From: a virus
Length of the DNA: 39,495 nucleotides
Direction: 5' to 3' (one strand)
IMG/VR virus record: IMGVR_UViG_3300009788_000188
Location: 1 to 39,495 of that record
A program made the translations under genes and the position numbers. Position 1 is the first letter of the stretch, and each line of letters begins with the position of its first letter. The notes beneath the pieces were generated by a model, which saw only the letters and a program-made list of their open reading frames with translations, was not told where the DNA came from and did no database searches. This document shows positions 11,389 through 36,036 of the stretch, one piece after another.

Positions 11389-11744
11389 GTTTTCGGGGGG
11401 CGGGAGGCAAAACGAGGCCCACAGGATTTAGCCTGTTTGCCTCGCTTCTCGGTACGGCGGTATGACGTTCTGCGAGCCGGGTTCCTGACAGCATCTTGCC
11501 GATTCTCATTTTTCGTGCCGGTCCCCGAATCGCCCTCGGCACAAACTGATCCCCGGTCGGCGTGACTGTGGCCATCCCTGTGACTGATGCACCGACTCGA
11601 TTCGGCTTGTAATGCGGGAACGCGGGAGGCAGAATTGGTGTCTGAACTGCTGATCCCTCGCCGGATCGCACTCTAAGTCCGAAAGGGGCCTGTTCTCCGA
11701 CAGGCCCCGGACGGCAACATTGATACCACCTCCACACCTCAACG
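11389..11744 (-). other. Structured intergenic region with two strong hairpins
   Basis: The largest gene-free stretch, about 356 bp. Hairpin 1 (11404-11443): GAGGCAAA pairs with TTTGCCTC and CAGG with CCTG, with a 10-base bulge. Hairpin 2 (11685-11708): GGGGCCTGT pairs with ACAGGCCCC around a six-base loop, followed on the minus strand by only three T. A reading frame does cross the region on the minus strand (to 11830), but it has an Arg/Pro-rich translation, no ribosome site, and runs through both hairpins, so I do not accept it. A promoter, attenuator, small RNA or origin is possible. Confidence 0.5.
11685..11708 (-). terminator. Possible weak terminator hairpin
   Basis: A perfect 9-bp GC-rich stem (11685-11693 with 11700-11708), six-base loop, followed on the minus strand by TTTCGG. 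The short U tract makes efficient termination doubtful; it may be an attenuator or a 3' end stabiliser for the gene ending at 11745. Confidence 0.45.
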
Positions 11745-12095
11745 TCAAAGGCCAGCCACGTGCGAGTGGCGGGCTTCCGGTAAGACGCCCTCAGCGTCCG
11801 TAGGAGCGATTTCCGCTGCACCCGACGCAACTACGTCCCCGCGATCCTTTTGATCGCCTGTGGGCTGCAAGGTAGGCCACGGCTGCGATAAACGGCGTTT
11901 CCCTAGCCTAGTGCAGACAATTCGACCTCTGGACCGGGTATCGACCATGCCGCGCTTTGCGAGACTGCGGATCGAACTCAGGTTTATGTCCGTATACCAA
12001 AGCAGGACGCCGCGACGACCATGCTTCCGAATCGTCTCCAAAACCTCTAGCTGTCGCCGCGTCATCCACGCGGCTTTCGTTTTTCCTCCAAACAT
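11745..12095 (-). CDS. Putative winged-helix transcription factor
   Basis: 116 residues from the ATG at 12095 (AGAGGTAAC upstream). Residues ~10-65 (MTRRQLEVLETIRKHGRRG ... SSIRSLAKRGMVDTRSRGRIVCTRLG) have the MarR-like order: helix, turn, recognition helix, short wing, then TRLGKR. The C-terminal ~45 residues look unstructured. It follows the exonuclease gene by ten bases and precedes the hairpin-rich gap, so a regulatory role on this block is plausible. Confidence 0.65.
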   Translation of the reverse strand: MFGGKTKAAWMTRRQLEVLETIRKHGRRGVLLWYTDINLSSIRSLAKRGMVDTRSRGRIVCTRLGKRRLSQPWPTLQPTGDQKDRGDVVASGAAEIAPTDAEGVLPEARHSHVAGL

Positions 12096-13022: not shown

Positions 13023-13189
13023 CAGTACGGTCCTCCACCCGGTGGATACTTCTGACAGGCATTCGTCAATCGTTCCTGTTCGAGTCGTAATTTCTTGACT
13101 TCAACGCGAAGCGACTCGATTCCTTCGCTCTGTTTTTCGACAGCAAGTAGTAAATCGTGAACGGCGTGTCGCAGGATCATGTCGCTCAT
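13022..13189 (-). CDS. Small coiled-coil protein
   Basis: 55 residues from the ATG at 13189, overlapping the RecT stop (ATGA). Residues ~10-42 form one charged coiled coil (LLLAVEKQSEGIESLRVEVK), ending PPGGGPY. Not recognised; possibly an accessory to the annealase/exonuclease pair by position. Confidence 0.6.
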   Translation of the reverse strand: MSDMILRHAVHDLLLAVEKQSEGIESLRVEVKKLRLEQERLTNACQKYPPGGGPY

Positions 13190-14061
13190 ACCGGCGCAAC
13201 CATCCGTACAGCTTCGTCGAAGCACTTCTCAGGAATCAACGACAGTGACACTACTCCGAATGCACGACACACGGTATCAGTGGAAATGTTGTGTTCCGAG
13301 CAAAGGTCGGTGAGTTGATTGGTCTGGCTTCGGCTGATGATTCGAACGGCCTCGCCCTCGAAAGTCACAGGTTCGATTGTGTCCATGACCTCGATTGCTC
13401 GCTGCATCTTGCCCTCTGCATCGTGAGGCCAATGTTTCCATCCTCGACGGATCACAGCCTTTTTTCGCATTTCGTCTTTGAACGGGCCGCGCCAAACGGC
13501 ACCGCCGCGTTTTCCACTGCGTTGCTTTTTCTGTGCGTGTTCCTCAACTGCATCGAGTTGTTCGCGATCCATTACCTCGACGTGCTGTTTGCCATTTCTG
13601 AACTGCGCGATGCAATAGGCGTGAGTGACTTCGCCGCGATCCTTTCGTGCTTCCTCGTGCATGATGTACCGACCATCCGGACCTGTGCCGACTCGGAACA
13701 CTGGATCATTCTCGCAAGCGAGCGCCGCCTGTATCGCGATCACCACGCCGGTTCCAAAAGCCATCTGCTCCATGCCGCGATAGCCGATGCAGAGCGTCGC
13801 TTTGTCTCCGTAGGGTATTAGGTACAGAAGCGACTGCGACGGTGCTAGAGTCAATCCTGTGTACGCCACATCGAGCAGCGCATTGTGTATCGACTCCGGA
13901 CTGCACTTGCGCAAATACTCGCTGCCTTGAATGATCTGCAACGCAAAATTCCGCTGCGCGGAAAATTTGAGAGTCTTGTCGGGTCGCCCTGCGTTGAATC
14001 GTGCGATTAGTGATCGGTCGGTGAGAATTTCTTTGTATTCCTTTAATGCGTGTGTCGTCAT
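13186..14061 (-). CDS. RecT-family single-strand annealing protein
   Basis: 291 residues from the ATG at 14061 (AGGAACGG upstream). Features of the RecT family: an N-terminal helical part, S-I-H-N-A-L-L-D-V-A-Y-T-G-L-T-L-A-P, then Y-L-I-P-Y-G-D-K-A-T-L-C-I-G-Y-R-G-M, and the later region FKDEMRKKAVIRRGWKHWP. RecT proteins bind ssDNA, anneal complementary strands and, with the partner exonuclease, drive phage recombination. ATGA coupling downstream leads to a coiled-coil gene, a lipoprotein and then the exonuclease. Confidence 0.9.
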   Translation of the reverse strand: MTTHALKEYKEILTDRSLIARFNAGRPDKTLKFSAQRNFALQIIQGSEYLRKCSPESIHNALLDVAYTGLTLAPSQSLLYLIPYGDKATLCIGYRGMEQMAFGTGVVIAIQAALACENDPVFRVGTGPDGRYIMHEEARKDRGEVTHAYCIAQFRNGKQHVEVMDREQLDAVEEHAQKKQRSGKRGGAVWRGPFKDEMRKKAVIRRGWKHWPHDAEGKMQRAIEVMDTIEPVTFEGEAVRIISRSQTNQLTDLCSEHNISTDTVCRAFGVVSLSLIPEKCFDEAVRMVAPV

Positions 14062-14083
14062 ATTTCCGTTCCTGTTGTTGTGT

Positions 14084-14305
14084 TCAGTCGTCGTCCAGCT
14101 CGCACAAGAACTCGATAGCAATCGCCTTTTCAGGAGTGAATTTCTCGCCCTCGTCCTCTGCCATTTGAGCGCAAAGTTCTCGCTCTGCTTTCTCTGCTTT
14201 ACTGACCGCTTCCGTCAGCGTGCGCGCACAGACATTTTTCGTGCTGCCGTGTCTGGCTGGATACTTCATGTCTCCCATTTTTACTTGCCATACTTTCGTT
14301 TTCAT
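14084..14305 (-). CDS. Hypothetical small protein
   Basis: 73 residues; the ATG overlaps the csrA stop (ATATGA). A beta start (KVWQVKMGD), then a helix with acidic residues and ELDDD at the end. Tight coupling to the CsrA homologue suggests co-regulation. Not recognised. Confidence 0.65.
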   Translation of the reverse strand: MKTKVWQVKMGDMKYPARHGSTKNVCARTLTEAVSKAEKAERELCAQMAEDEGEKFTPEKAIAIEFLCELDDD

Positions 14306-14493
14306 ATTCGACCCTCTGCTTTTTTTGCCTCGTAGATTTCCTCCCGATCAATCAGGAAGGTCTTCTCGGCATCGATGCCCAAATAGACTTGCCAATTGCG
14401 ATGCACGTCGAGCACTTCAACAGTGATCTTGTCGCCCGACTTTTCGTGCGTGATGATAATTTTCTCGCCCTTGTTTCTGGTAAGTTTTAGCAT
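14302..14493 (-). CDS. csrA: CsrA/RsmA-family RNA-binding regulator
   Basis: 63 residues, the usual CsrA length. It opens MLKLTRNKGEKIII (host CsrA: M-L-I-L-T-R-x-x-G-E) and has V-x-V-L-D-V-H-R-N-x-V-Y-L-G-I-D-A and the end I-D-R-E-E-I-Y-E-A. The Arg at position 6 and the Arg of R-E-E-I correspond to the two RNA-contacting arginines. CsrA dimers bind GGA in hairpin loops near ribosome sites and repress or stabilise mRNAs. The leader has a strong hairpin with GGA in its loop (14514-14548) and a GGAG ribosome site, so auto-regulation is likely by analogy. A phage copy could reprogramme host or phage mRNA. Confidence 0.9.
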   Translation of the reverse strand: MLKLTRNKGEKIIITHEKSGDKITVEVLDVHRNWQVYLGIDAEKTFLIDREEIYEAKKAEGRI

Positions 14494-14513
14494 GAACGCT
14501 CCGTTGTGAAAGT

Positions 14514-14524
14514 TGTCCAGGCGT
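14514..14524 (+). repeat. Dispersed motif TGTCCNGGCGT, copy 5 (N=A)
   Basis: Exact match in non-coding DNA, so amino-acid coding cannot explain it. Confidence 0.85.
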
Positions 14525-14537
14525 CAGGATTTCCCCG

Positions 14538-14548
14538 ACGCCCGGACA
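14538..14548 (-). repeat. Dispersed motif TGTCCNGGCGT, the only inverted copy (N=G)
   Basis: Exact match on the minus strand, 13 bases from copy 5 and forming a palindrome with it. All the other copies are on the + strand. Confidence 0.8.
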
Positions 14549-14555
14549 CCCCTTG

Positions 14556-15722
14556 CTATGCCGCTATGGCAACGGGTACGGCTTCTACCATCCGTTTCCA
14601 ATTGGCATTGGTGATGTCGATCAGCTTGGAGCCGATCACTTCAAGGTCTGCTGCCCTGTCGTAATCAACCACCTCACTGTTAGCGACTTTCGTAACCGCG
14701 TTGACCACTCCCCACCTCGAATAGTCCCGGTCCTCGATCAAGTTCTTGAGCACTTCGTCTGACTCGGTTTGATTCAAGCCATGATCCTTCGCCAATAATT
14801 CGATTGCCGGAATCGGATATTTGATTCCGTCACCTTCCCGCAAACTTCTGAGTTTGTCGCCCATCTGGTTGACGAACTCCGGTGTTGCAATCGCGTGCAT
14901 GACATCATGCACTTGGCTGAGAATCGTTTCGTCCTCATGTTTCTTGCTCTTGTCCGACAGCACCTCGAAATCAACGCCCTCGATCAATGCACCGCCGAGG
15001 TGAACACGCTTGTATTCGAAGGCGTCTGTCTTCCCGAACACGCAACCGTTGTAGCAAAAACTCCGATAGAAAAACGCTGCTATCGACACCGAGCCAGAAC
15101 CAATCTCCGAATTGCGGAGACAGAAACCCGGCTGAACAATGTCCGGTGTTCCATCGCGAGTCTTGCCAATTTCCTGTTTCATATCCTCGCCGGTCAAAAG
15201 CACTTTGACGTAAAGGTTACGGTCGGTCACTTGGGAACTGAGCAAAATTGTTTCCAGATCGCCTTTCACGATAGCGGGCAACGCGGCTCCGAGCACTTGG
15301 TCATTATCTATCCTCTTGTAGCGGTTCGACAAGAATGCTCTCAGCTTATTGTCCATCGTTCGCAATAGGCGCGTTCCCGGCTCACGTTCGAATAACTTGT
15401 TGACCGAATCCAAAACGATATCGGTATGGTCTTCAAGCATCCGAGCGTAAAACTTCCACGGTATCTGCAACCGACCAGCAATCTGTCGATGTGCGTGTTC
15501 CGTTATCTCAAGCCGTTCGAGACATGGAAGCCCAACAGCCGGGTAATTTTCGGCAACTTCCGATTCCTGCCCCTTCTGCAAAACGACAGCTACGTTACTT
15601 GGGAATCCGGGCATCGGCACCATTCGAACATCGTTCTGTGTCGATGCGACGTAATCCTTTTTCGCGCGTGACTGACGTTGCACTTCCGTAAGCAGCTCTT
15701 CGATTGTCATTCCTCGTTTCAT
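14556..15722 (-). CDS. DUF932 (phage/plasmid-like TIGR03299) protein
   Basis: About 388 residues from the ATG at 15722 (AGGAG nine bases upstream); in-frame starts further upstream lack a ribosome site. It fits the DUF932 family: L-x-I-T-E-H-A-H-R-Q-I-A-G-R-L, LRTMDNKLRAFLSNRYKRID, then VKVLLTGEDM and QPGFCLRNSEIGSGSVSIAAFF. DUF932 proteins are common near phage recombination genes; their biochemical role is not established. The leader contains a small hairpin at 15763-15782. Confidence 0.8.
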   Translation of the reverse strand: MKRGMTIEELLTEVQRQSRAKKDYVASTQNDVRMVPMPGFPSNVAVVLQKGQESEVAENYPAVGLPCLERLEITEHAHRQIAGRLQIPWKFYARMLEDHTDIVLDSVNKLFEREPGTRLLRTMDNKLRAFLSNRYKRIDNDQVLGAALPAIVKGDLETILLSSQVTDRNLYVKVLLTGEDMKQEIGKTRDGTPDIVQPGFCLRNSEIGSGSVSIAAFFYRSFCYNGCVFGKTDAFEYKRVHLGGALIEGVDFEVLSDKSKKHEDETILSQVHDVMHAIATPEFVNQMGDKLRSLREGDGIKYPIPAIELLAKDHGLNQTESDEVLKNLIEDRDYSRWGVVNAVTKVANSEVVDYDRAADLEVIGSKLIDITNANWKRMVEAVPVAIAA

Positions 15723-15762
15723 TTTTTCTACTCCTATTTTCGGCATCCCAATTGACACCAGA

Positions 15763-15782
15763 GAGCACCCCACGGGATGCTC
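15763..15782 (-). promoter_or_regulatory. Leader hairpin upstream of the DUF932 gene
   Basis: As minus-strand RNA, GAGCAUCCC pairs with GGGUGCUC (one G-U pair or bulge) around a GUG loop, in the 75-bp gap before the start at 15722. There is no U tract. It could be a terminator remnant or a protein-binding site. Confidence 0.5.
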
Positions 15783-15797
15783 AAGCTATCAACTGTA

Positions 15798-16040
15798 TTA
15801 GCCACGAATCGAATCGACAACAGTCTGAGTCCTACAGTGAAAAATCGTTGCGACATAGCGAGTGTAAACATTCAATTCGATTTCCGAATCAAAAGCAGAA
15901 CGACTAACATCGCAATTCGAATCCTCTCGGTCGCCACTCAAAAGCATTGGAGCTGACTGCAACATCGGCAATTCGTTGAATCGCACCATCCGTACAAAGC
16001 AGCCATAGTCCGGTGCGGGTTTCCAATTATTAAATTTCAT
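15798..16040 (-). CDS. Hypothetical small protein
   Basis: 80 residues; ATG at 16040 overlaps the upstream stop (ATGA). Begins MKFNNWKPAPDYGCFVRMVR; two Cys in the second half. No family or membrane segment recognised. Confidence 0.55.
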   Translation of the reverse strand: MKFNNWKPAPDYGCFVRMVRFNELPMLQSAPMLLSGDREDSNCDVSRSAFDSEIELNVYTRYVATIFHCRTQTVVDSIRG

Positions 16041-20701: not shown

Positions 20702-23700
20702 TAGCCGTACGCTACGCCGTTAATGTACCAAGTCGTTCCACCATCCCATGTGGACAAGTAGTAAATTGTGATCGAGTCAGCGGCGGGTGACGGCTCAACT
20801 TCTATGGCACCGGGCCATATGAACGTGCCGCCGGCCCACGTTAATGTGCGCGCTGCCGTTGTGTCCTGCTGAATCTTGACTATCATTTCGCCATACGTGC
20901 CGGACGGCGGGCCACCACTGATCGTAATGGTGACGTTGCCTGTGGCAGCTTCAAGGTCTAACTCATACGACTGCGCCGTAGAATAGGTCAGTGTGACCGC
21001 GTTCGCGACGACCACTGCTGTGGCGTTGGTGATCGAGTAGTCGTCAATTTCTGCTCGTATTATAAGGTTATCGTTCATGAGCAAATCGCAACCACCAGAC
21101 AGTGCGAATTGATCGAAGCCGCTGACATCCCAGTTAGCCGTACTTGTGCCAATTGTGTTGAAATCGACCCCGTCATTATTGAAATCGACATGGTCTACGT
21201 TGGTTGAATCAAATATGCGCAGGATAGAACCGGCTCGCACATCGAAATTCACACCATCCCATGTTAGTAGGCCAGCCGTGTCGATCCAGTTGCCGGCGCT
21301 TCGGAACAAAAGGTCATTATCAGCAGCGCCGGTGAGGTCTACGTCTGTAAGATCATCGAAGGCAGCCGCCATTAACGATTTAGTCACTCCATTGATGCGA
21401 GCCAAAATATCGGTGGTTGTAACCCAAATGTCGCCATCGACCGGGGCCGAAGGCGCAACGCCTTCGAGGATTCGTATGCTCGCGCCGCCAGCAACACTCG
21501 CACGGAATGTTTGCAGCACAGAATAAATTGTTGCGCGATCAGCATAGTCGGCAATGTTGGCGACAACCACGCCGGTACGCCCTTCAAATGAATCGACACC
21601 GCTACCTGTCGGCGTTCCCCACGATCCGTCACCCTGCAAAAACAAACCTTGTTGGCTGACTTGTGCCTTTGGCACCGGACCAGCCATCGTTTCGCCTTCG
21701 ACATTTACTGTGCCGAACTCAGGCCCGATAGATTGCACGCTGATCGAATCAATGCGCAGCGTGTCAGCAGTTCCCTGATTGCCATTGATTGAAAACTCGA
21801 AGGTCAGAAAATTAAAGTCGGTCGCATTTATATGCCAAACAACGTCAAAGGTTTTCCAGACACCAACAGACGTTCGAGGCATTGTGAATTTCGGACTGCC
21901 CATGCAACTAAGTGCGCCGCCAAATTCAGTAACCGATGTGCAAGTAAAAACCTGGCAGTTGTCATGGTCTAAAGCGTCGGCGACTCCCTCGGTTCGGTAC
22001 TTTATCTGAAACAGGAAAGAGCCTTCATCACCGCGCCAAGTTTGCTTTTTCTTCATTCGCAGTTGCGCGAATCCAGCACTGTCGTTTTTCTGGTCGAGGT
22101 CAATCGCATTCGAGCCATTCTGACCACCACCAGTAATAAAGTCGCCGGTCGAAGTGGTGAACGTGGTAAAAATCCAAAACTCATTTTGCGATCCGTTCCC
22201 ATTACCGACCCACGGAATGCCAATGTCGAACTCAGGGTCGAGAATCCAATTCTTTCGCTCGCGAAACGGCTCGGCAGAAGCAGTTGTTGTTGATGTGTCA
22301 GGTTCGAATAGGCTGACGTTGCCATCCAGATCAGCAGCACGAATCCAATAGTAGCGAGTGCGCTTCGCAACATTGTCTAGCGACTCGACGTGCTGCTCGC
22401 CCTTCGTCGTAGCAATCATTATCGCGTCGGCCCGAACATTGGTATCGCTGCCCCATATTTCTATGTGGTCGAACGATCCGGGTTCAGGGTTTGTCCAATC
22501 GATTTTAACGCCCTCGAATATGCTTTCCGCAGTAAGCCCGGTCGGAGGTGGCAAAATTATTGCTTGGTCGTCTTCCGGTGTCACATCGCAAGGCAAGAAT
22601 GAAATCCTGAAATTGACGCCCGACTGATCGAATCCGCTGATCCGAAAAAACGGCATGAAAGGGGCCATGTTTTTCTGCGGCGCATTAGTTTGCGACAGGC
22701 TCCTGTTCTGACTGCTTGCCGACTGCCCTTCGCCTTGAAGCGGCAACGCGAACTGAGCAGGAACATCACCAGTGATCGCAAAAAAGTGTCCCGCAATATC
22801 CGGAAACGTCTGCGCCGATCCATCGATAAGCCACAACAACGCGCCCGGACATCCGGCACCACCCGCACCGCCGTAAATGTGGAAGGTAGGATTCGGTGCA
22901 GTGACGAAAAAGCCGGTTGGTTCTAAAGCATCGTCACCATCGAGCCGAATCTCTCCGGACACGCCGAAGTCTCCACCCCGACAAACGATAACCAGAGCAG
23001 CACCACCAGCACCGCCAGCACCGCCGATATTTTTTTGATGAGTGCGACCAGTGAGGCCAATTTTTAGGCCGGCTCTCGGGCCTGCAGGACCGCCGCCGCC
23101 GCGCATATCGGTAGGTATTCCAATGATTGAACCGCTGCCAGCATCATCGACTTCAAGCACGAGGTTAGGGAATGCATCGAACCGGCCGGTCTGCGAATAC
23201 GGTGCCGTGACCCAAACCCATTTTGGTATGCCGCCATCATCAGGCTCACGAAACAACAAGCCAAAATGCGAACCGCTGTTACCAATGAATCCCTCTGTAC
23301 CGAAATTGATGCCCGAAGTAAAAAAGTAGTGTTCATCAAAAACAAAATTGTCGGTGCCTGCTGCGAGTCCTTGCCCTGTGCCGATAATCGATCCATCGAT
23401 GGTCAAAAAACCTCGGACTCTAAGCTGTACGTTGTCCTCAATATTCAGCGTCGTAGTGGAACTTATTGTCAGCGGAGCATCGTGATAGAAAATTGCGCCC
23501 GCCGCATTCATGTCGGGATCACCGACCAGTGTAAATGCTCCTGCGTTGGTGACATTGCCTGTCATTAATCCCGGCACACTCGACAGCGCAGTACCGGCCT
23601 GCGGATAGAACGCATCAGGCAAACAGGTCGTCGCGGTGATCGGTGGAATTTCGTCGGCCCTTTCGGAACTACCGAACAACTTCAGCTTGACGCCCTTTAG

Positions 23701-28060: not shown

Positions 28061-28071
28061 TGTCCAGGCGT
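28061..28071 (+). repeat. Dispersed motif TGTCCNGGCGT, copy 8 (N=A)
   Basis: Exact match lying almost wholly in the 35-bp gap after the tail tube gene; its last base is part of that gene's TAA stop. Confidence 0.85.
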
Positions 28072-29456: not shown

Positions 29457-29481
29457 GGGGCGGGCCAGTAATGCCCGCCCC
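29457..29481 (-). promoter_or_regulatory. Perfect 9-bp GC hairpin downstream of the major capsid gene
   Basis: GGGGCGGGC (29457-29465) pairs with GCCCGCCCC (29473-29481) around a seven-base loop. On the minus strand AATTCTAAAAT follows, so there is no true U tract. It probably acts as a partial terminator or 3' stabiliser raising capsid mRNA relative to the genes downstream. Confidence 0.75.
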
Positions 29482-35606: not shown

Positions 35607-36036
35607 GTATGGCCGACTGTAAAGTGGACTGGCACTTGCGGAAGCTGTTCTCATGCTGGACTAGCGGCGCAGTTTTTTTAGGCAGATTGAGAAGTTTAGC
35701 GCGAAACGCGCCTGTCATGTGGTTCCAACTGTAGGCAACGATATCGACCGGGATCAAATCACCCGCGAGCGTCGCTGCTTCCATGATCGCTTTGTCGGCA
35801 TCGGCGCGCATTTTTTGTGTCCTGGCGTCACCGTAAGCGGTTTCTCCTACTTGCGTTGACTCTCGATCCGATTTCAAAAAAGCGATGTAACTAATCAATG
35901 AATCGATGAACCGATATCGCCCGCGCCCCTCTTTGAAAATGATGCCATCCGCCGCAAGAATCTGAATGTAACGCTCAGTGACTCCGAAAATATGAGCGAG
36001 CACTTTGCCGGTGACGTTTGTCTCTTGTCCAGCCAC
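35449..36036 (-). CDS. Terminase small subunit (Nu1-like)
   Basis: 195 residues from a GTG at 36036 directly after the upstream TGA. The N-terminal ~50 residues (VTGKVLAHIFGVTERYIQIL, then G-R-Y-R-F-I-D-S) are a Nu1-type winged helix that recognises the packaging site. A helical oligomerisation region and a basic end (GRKKSKTVKRKQRRAG) follow. A Nu1/gpA pair usually packages cohesive-end DNA, so a cos site is expected; I could not locate one. A dispersed-motif copy is within it (D-A-R-T). Confidence 0.85.
   Translation of the reverse strand: MAGQETNVTGKVLAHIFGVTERYIQILAADGIIFKEGRGRYRFIDSLISYIAFLKSDRESTQVGETAYGDARTQKMRADADKAIMEAATLAGDLIPVDIVAYSWNHMTGAFRAKLLNLPKKTAPLVQHENSFRKCQSTLQSAIHECLAELSQYEPPAKHFGNLEQFLSGTTSRLDDKPVGRKKSKTVKRKQRRAG
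35818..35828 (+). repeat. Dispersed motif TGTCCNGGCGT, copy 11 (N=T)
   Basis: Exact match in the small-terminase gene, read D-A-R-T (phase AC|GCC|AGG|ACA). Confidence 0.85.

Follow-up and report, generated by a model that had tools for sequence, protein, structure and literature searches.

A conserved sense-strand RNA hairpin in front of a phage csrA gene, probably of terminator ancestry

The DNA analysed here, referred to as the window, is a virus record of 39,495 bases in which the minus strand carries nearly all genes. It harbors a hairpin which is a real, conserved, sense-strand RNA element located in front of a phage csrA gene, exactly at the originally predicted positions 14514-14548. 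By ancestry the element is probably a terminator. We lean, by a modest degree, towards an intercistronic terminator or attenuator that limits read-through into csrA and recT and that would have decayed in this phage to a hairpin without U-tract. The genes and RNA features concerned are the following.

14556..15728, minus strand: DUF932-like gene (phrog_1362), upstream; its stop codon lies 8 nt ahead of the GTCC stem
14514..14548, minus strand: RNA hairpin with a 15-bp stem (5' arm 14548-14534, 3' arm 14528-14514) and the loop GAAAU (14533-14529)
14530..14539, minus strand: 10-mer GTCGGGGAAA, invariant across three csrA leaders and occurring once per phage record
14532..14534, minus strand: GGA at the hairpin apex, with the first G paired and GA in the loop
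14494..14513, minus strand: leader from hairpin to csrA, ACTTTCACAACGGAGCGTTC, with an eroded U-tract and a Shine-Dalgarno GGA at 14500-14502
14302..14493, minus strand: csrA, 63 aa, CsrA family (Pfam PF02599, 55.1 bits at a cut-off of 27; matches to CsrA in the PDB)
13186..14061, minus strand: RecT family gene downstream of csrA (PF03837, 90.7 bits), in the same order in relatives

The encoded protein has the CsrA domain and retains the RNA-contact residues L4 and R50, the latter corresponding to R44 by alignment, as is characteristic of the CsrA family. It resembles other phage- and plasmid-borne csrA genes in being a CsrA-family gene in a phage; 30 csrA-positive phages have been listed (PMC7366521). 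Compared to E. coli-type CsrA, the lineage of the window has an insertion of 5-6 residues (around THEKSGD) which is not found there, and it shares less than 50% identity with the CsrA proteins from isolated phages.

The hairpin lies within the 62-nt gap between the stop codon of the DUF932-like gene (14556-14558) and the start of csrA (14493). The original prediction had described 12 pairs, including one G-U, around a loop of 11 nt, GGGGAAAUCCU. These pairs are present, but most of the loop is closed: three further pairs (G-U, G-C, G-C) form within it, so that the minimum-energy structure has 15 bp and the loop GAAAU, and the GGA is not free. The transcript thus contains a stable, G+C-rich hairpin. 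Its stability of -29.3 kcal/mol is unmatched by any other uninterrupted hairpin in the window, and 60 shuffles of the whole window reached -26.0 kcal/mol at best. Folding of the minus-strand csrA leader, which had been suggested as a check, gave a z-score of -4.8 relative to its own shuffles, none of which (0/200) was equally stable, placing the hairpin far beyond chance. No Rfam family matched the window at the gathering score, and nothing came near that score in 13500-16000 or in the related loci L006 and L008.

Relatives were found with the DUF932 protein as query and comprise L002/L005, L006, L007 and L008. L002/L005 are 99.97% identical to the window and provide no independent evidence, while the leaders of L006 and L007 (G002/G003) are identical to each other and were counted as one lineage and L008 (G004) as another; the number of independent leaders is therefore three. 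Identity to the window in L006/L007 and L008 is 91% and 84% for DUF932, 85% and 75% for RecT, and 60% and 51% for CsrA (14302-14493), which diverges much faster than its neighbours. The order DUF932, hairpin, csrA, RecT is retained, and the spacing is nearly constant in the three lineages, as the hairpin starts 7-8 nt past the DUF932 stop codon and ends 16-21 nt ahead of csrA, with 16-18 nt in the two relatives. Searches of viral contigs with csrA, DUF932 and RecT yielded four close records only, plus distant RecT matches at 31%. Two scans of bacterial genomes returned no further relatives and the isolated-phage collection no similar leader; in Vibrio phage 431E45.1 the annotated csrA overlaps the preceding gene and has no comparable intercistronic leader.

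A comparison of leaders in related phages had been proposed, in which the absence of a conserved stem or loop would have spoken against the proposal; each of the three lineages has retained the stem together with GGGGAAA. Standard pairs are preserved at all 11 aligned stem positions: both bases differ in one of them (C-G, G-U, A-U), four show wobble variation, and a whole pair is gained or lost, the aligned stem of the window having the additional one. As MAFFT did not align the three leaders correctly, the pairs were counted from a structural alignment made by hand, which is biased towards structure and holds three sequences only, so that the conserved pairing is support rather than proof. 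The strand on the 5' side, GUCGGGGAAA, is invariant and occurs a single time in each record, and within it GGGGAAA is unchanged while the strand opposite varies. In the sense orientation the three lineages give folds of -32.0, -23.6 and -27.2 kcal/mol, versus -22.0, -8.2 and -13.9 kcal/mol (same order) in the antisense orientation, and some G-U wobbles in the stems pair only as csrA-sense RNA. Since the hairpins of the opposite strand are much weaker, it is the csrA-sense RNA, not the DNA, that appears to be conserved. In the G004 record, too, no other uninterrupted hairpin is as stable.

The terminator ancestry is suggested by the relatives. In L006 and L008 the stem runs directly into a U-tract (AUUUUU and UUUUU), and the eroded stretch of the window leader aligns with the UUUUU of the relatives. 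L006/L007 and L008 share with intrinsic (Rho-independent) terminators and attenuators a G+C-rich hairpin, a GNRA-type loop and the U-tract that follows. Using the d'Aubenton-Carafa score d, L008 obtained 27.0, the best value of its record, which none of 100 shuffles reached. L006 obtained 2.2, a value reached by 1 of 1000 leader shuffles but by 15 of 100 whole-genome shuffles, and hence unremarkable genome-wide. The copy in the window, with the tail AACUUUC, has no U-tract and fails the score (d from -26 to -20). Unlike typical intrinsic terminators, the element lies 16-21 nt ahead of a start codon inside a cluster and not at its end. A full terminator would be odd in an apparently continuous gene cluster, which counts against this reading.

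If the terminator or attenuator reading holds, the hairpin would act on the transcript running on into csrA and recT. The ancestral form would have let only part of the transcripts pass, and expression of csrA and the following genes would have been lower or conditional. As the base of the hairpin is only 7-8 nt past the upstream stop codon, a ribosome finishing translation of DUF932 could conceivably impede folding and allow read-through. In the window phage, with its eroded U-tract, termination is probably weak, and the hairpin, one pair longer inside, may by now chiefly determine how abundant or how stable the two parts of the message are.

A different role was foreseen in the original prediction, in which the phage CsrA regulates its own mRNA through a GGA in the hairpin loop. 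The E. coli glgC leader, with one site in a hairpin and one at the Shine-Dalgarno sequence, is the model for bridging by CsrA, and the E. coli protein is also a repressor of its own translation. The phage leader resembles those of glgC and E. coli csrA in its near-apex GGA, the GGA-containing Shine-Dalgarno sequence just downstream and the CsrA gene itself. A dimer of phage CsrA could accordingly bridge the apical and the Shine-Dalgarno GGA and block translation, which we consider rather unlikely. It would explain the constancy of GGGGAAA in three lineages opposite a varying strand, and it fits with the retained residues L4 and R44, with a Shine-Dalgarno GGA in all three leaders, although most Shine-Dalgarno sequences contain GGA anyway, and with the distance of about 22-29 nt between both GGAs, which is within the bridging range of 10-63 nt (PMC7652899). 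The structure of the hairpin argues against it. None of the three lineages has an unpaired GGA in the apical loop: its first G is paired in each, the joint probability of the GGA being unpaired is 0.002 in the window, 0.0016 in L006 and 0.0036 in L008 versus 1.0 in a consensus CsrA control hairpin, and freeing it costs about 3.8 kcal/mol in the window and 3.5-4.0 kcal/mol across lineages. In contrast to the glgC and E. coli csrA leaders, all three leaders have GGGGA and not ANGGA, and the putative site sits on a very long stem of 11-15 bp. Selected CsrA ligands mostly have no more than 4 contiguous pairs; CsrA prefers ANGGAN loops, binds less well when the GGA is paired, and may be disfavoured by highly stable structures (PMC7652899). 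A GGA lying within the paired terminator stem of CsrB was likewise suspected to be no authentic CsrA site (PMC5027483), and a GAAA loop with a G-rich 5' strand fits the apex of a terminator equally well. What stands of the proposal is that autoregulation through the Shine-Dalgarno sequence is quite possible, given its GGA at bridging distance and the conserved RNA contacts; the hairpin is not needed for this. A CsrA-controlled intrinsic terminator, with the phage CsrA binding the GGGGAAA apex of this attenuator in the leader of its own gene and so turning transcription towards csrA and recT on or off, is distinctly improbable. Alternatively, the element could be a plain intercistronic hairpin that protects or trims the message, as a barrier to 3'-exonucleases or an RNase III site, and adjusts the relative expression of the two genes, neither termination nor CsrA being involved. 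The missing U-tract of the window copy is consistent with this, as is a second strong hairpin of the same phage, which has neither a U-tract nor a GGA in its loop:

29457-29481: hairpin GGGGCGGGC-N7-GCCCGCCCC in the gap behind the capsid gene, about 20 nt ahead of the start of the gene that follows, kept in G002 and G004

Its conservation implies that intercistronic hairpins in these phages need not involve CsrA. Such a plain role would leave the U-tracts of both relatives and the invariant GUCGGGGAAA strand unexplained, and we regard it as doubtful.

A reading at the DNA level was also considered, as the arms of the hairpin carry two copies of a dispersed motif, ACGCC[T/A/C]GGAC, and had been thought to be built from them.

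14515..14524, minus strand: sense copy of the motif, ACGCCTGGAC, in the 3' arm; the same arm of L006 and L008 is without the motif
14538..14547, plus strand: antisense copy, ACGCCCGGAC, complement of the 5' arm

The motif is nearly confined to the minus strand, where [AG]CGCCNGGAC occurs 12 times; on the plus strand there is one exact copy, ACGCCNGGAC. The antisense copy was noted as the only one of its kind, which is correct for exact matches, but a looser plus-strand variant, GCGCCCGGAC, is found at 22841, and the copy is no independent fact, since a motif in one arm of a hairpin forces its complement in the other. That the motif would create a special palindromic protein-binding site in the DNA at this place is hardly credible. 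The motif is enriched beyond codon shuffles, the 11-mer ACGCCTGGACA occurring 6 times (tail genes left out) versus at most 4 times for any 11-mer in 200 codon shuffles. The relatives, however, have the hairpin without the motif, their arms being CCGGGGUC/GGCUCCGG and CCGGAGUC/GGCUCCGG, and show no enrichment of it; their wobble pairs break the DNA symmetry and their arms pair well only as sense RNA, which contradicts a palindromic DNA site. The inverted pair is thus a by-product and its presence in the hairpin incidental; the simplest view is that the hairpin predates the motif copies in the arms and does not depend on them. Most motif copies are missing at the corresponding positions in two related phages, while the intergenic copy at 28062-28071 is kept in G004 and the coding copies at 35819 and 23839 are fully or mostly kept in G002. 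The noncoding copies at 95-104, 14515-14524 and 28062-28071 have 14 bases in common, ACGCCTGGACAACT; in G004, 10 bases of the copy at 28062 follow a stop codon. A 30-bp repeat in G002/G003 which shares TCCTGACGCC is a tandem array and unrelated.

Phage csrA genes have been listed but hardly studied. A conserved hairpin at a fixed position in front of one suggests selection at the RNA level on csrA expression, and the leader offers a small, inexpensive system in which to study phage control of a global regulator, be it by attenuation, by autoregulation or by both. Should the element be no more than a terminator-like hairpin, it would belong to the usual make-up of phage operons.

Hairpins of -20 kcal/mol or below were found in 11 of 50 distinct viral csrA leaders and in 9 of 274 leaders taken as controls at the same loci, which is only a lead, as three of the 11 come from the family of the window, the leaders are non-independent and some controls lie inside coding sequence. 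A search for GGGGAAA combined with a csrA start retrieved the unrelated L023, L026 and L029 and a Pseudomonas-type rsmA (L027). In L023 (3894-3919, minus strand), L027 and L058, unrelated csrA or rsmA genes lie behind hairpins with a GGGGAAA or GGGGGAUA apex, L023 and L027 having been picked by the GGGGAAA pattern; the hairpin of L023 is terminator-like (d=12.2). Bulged hairpins 17-25 nt ahead of csrA were seen in the further csrA phages L045, L069, L075, L079, L080 and L083, where similar ones also precede other genes.

Elsewhere in the window, about 365 nt at 11393-11760 (minus strand) are without a convincing reading frame and form long hairpins, a candidate structured noncoding RNA. It had no Rfam match, and a CsrB-like sponge was dropped as an explanation, GGA being not obviously enriched when counted by eye. 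The window and G002 (L087:9870-10245) resemble each other more in this region than in the genes on either side of it, and their copies differ by indels of 1-3 nt.
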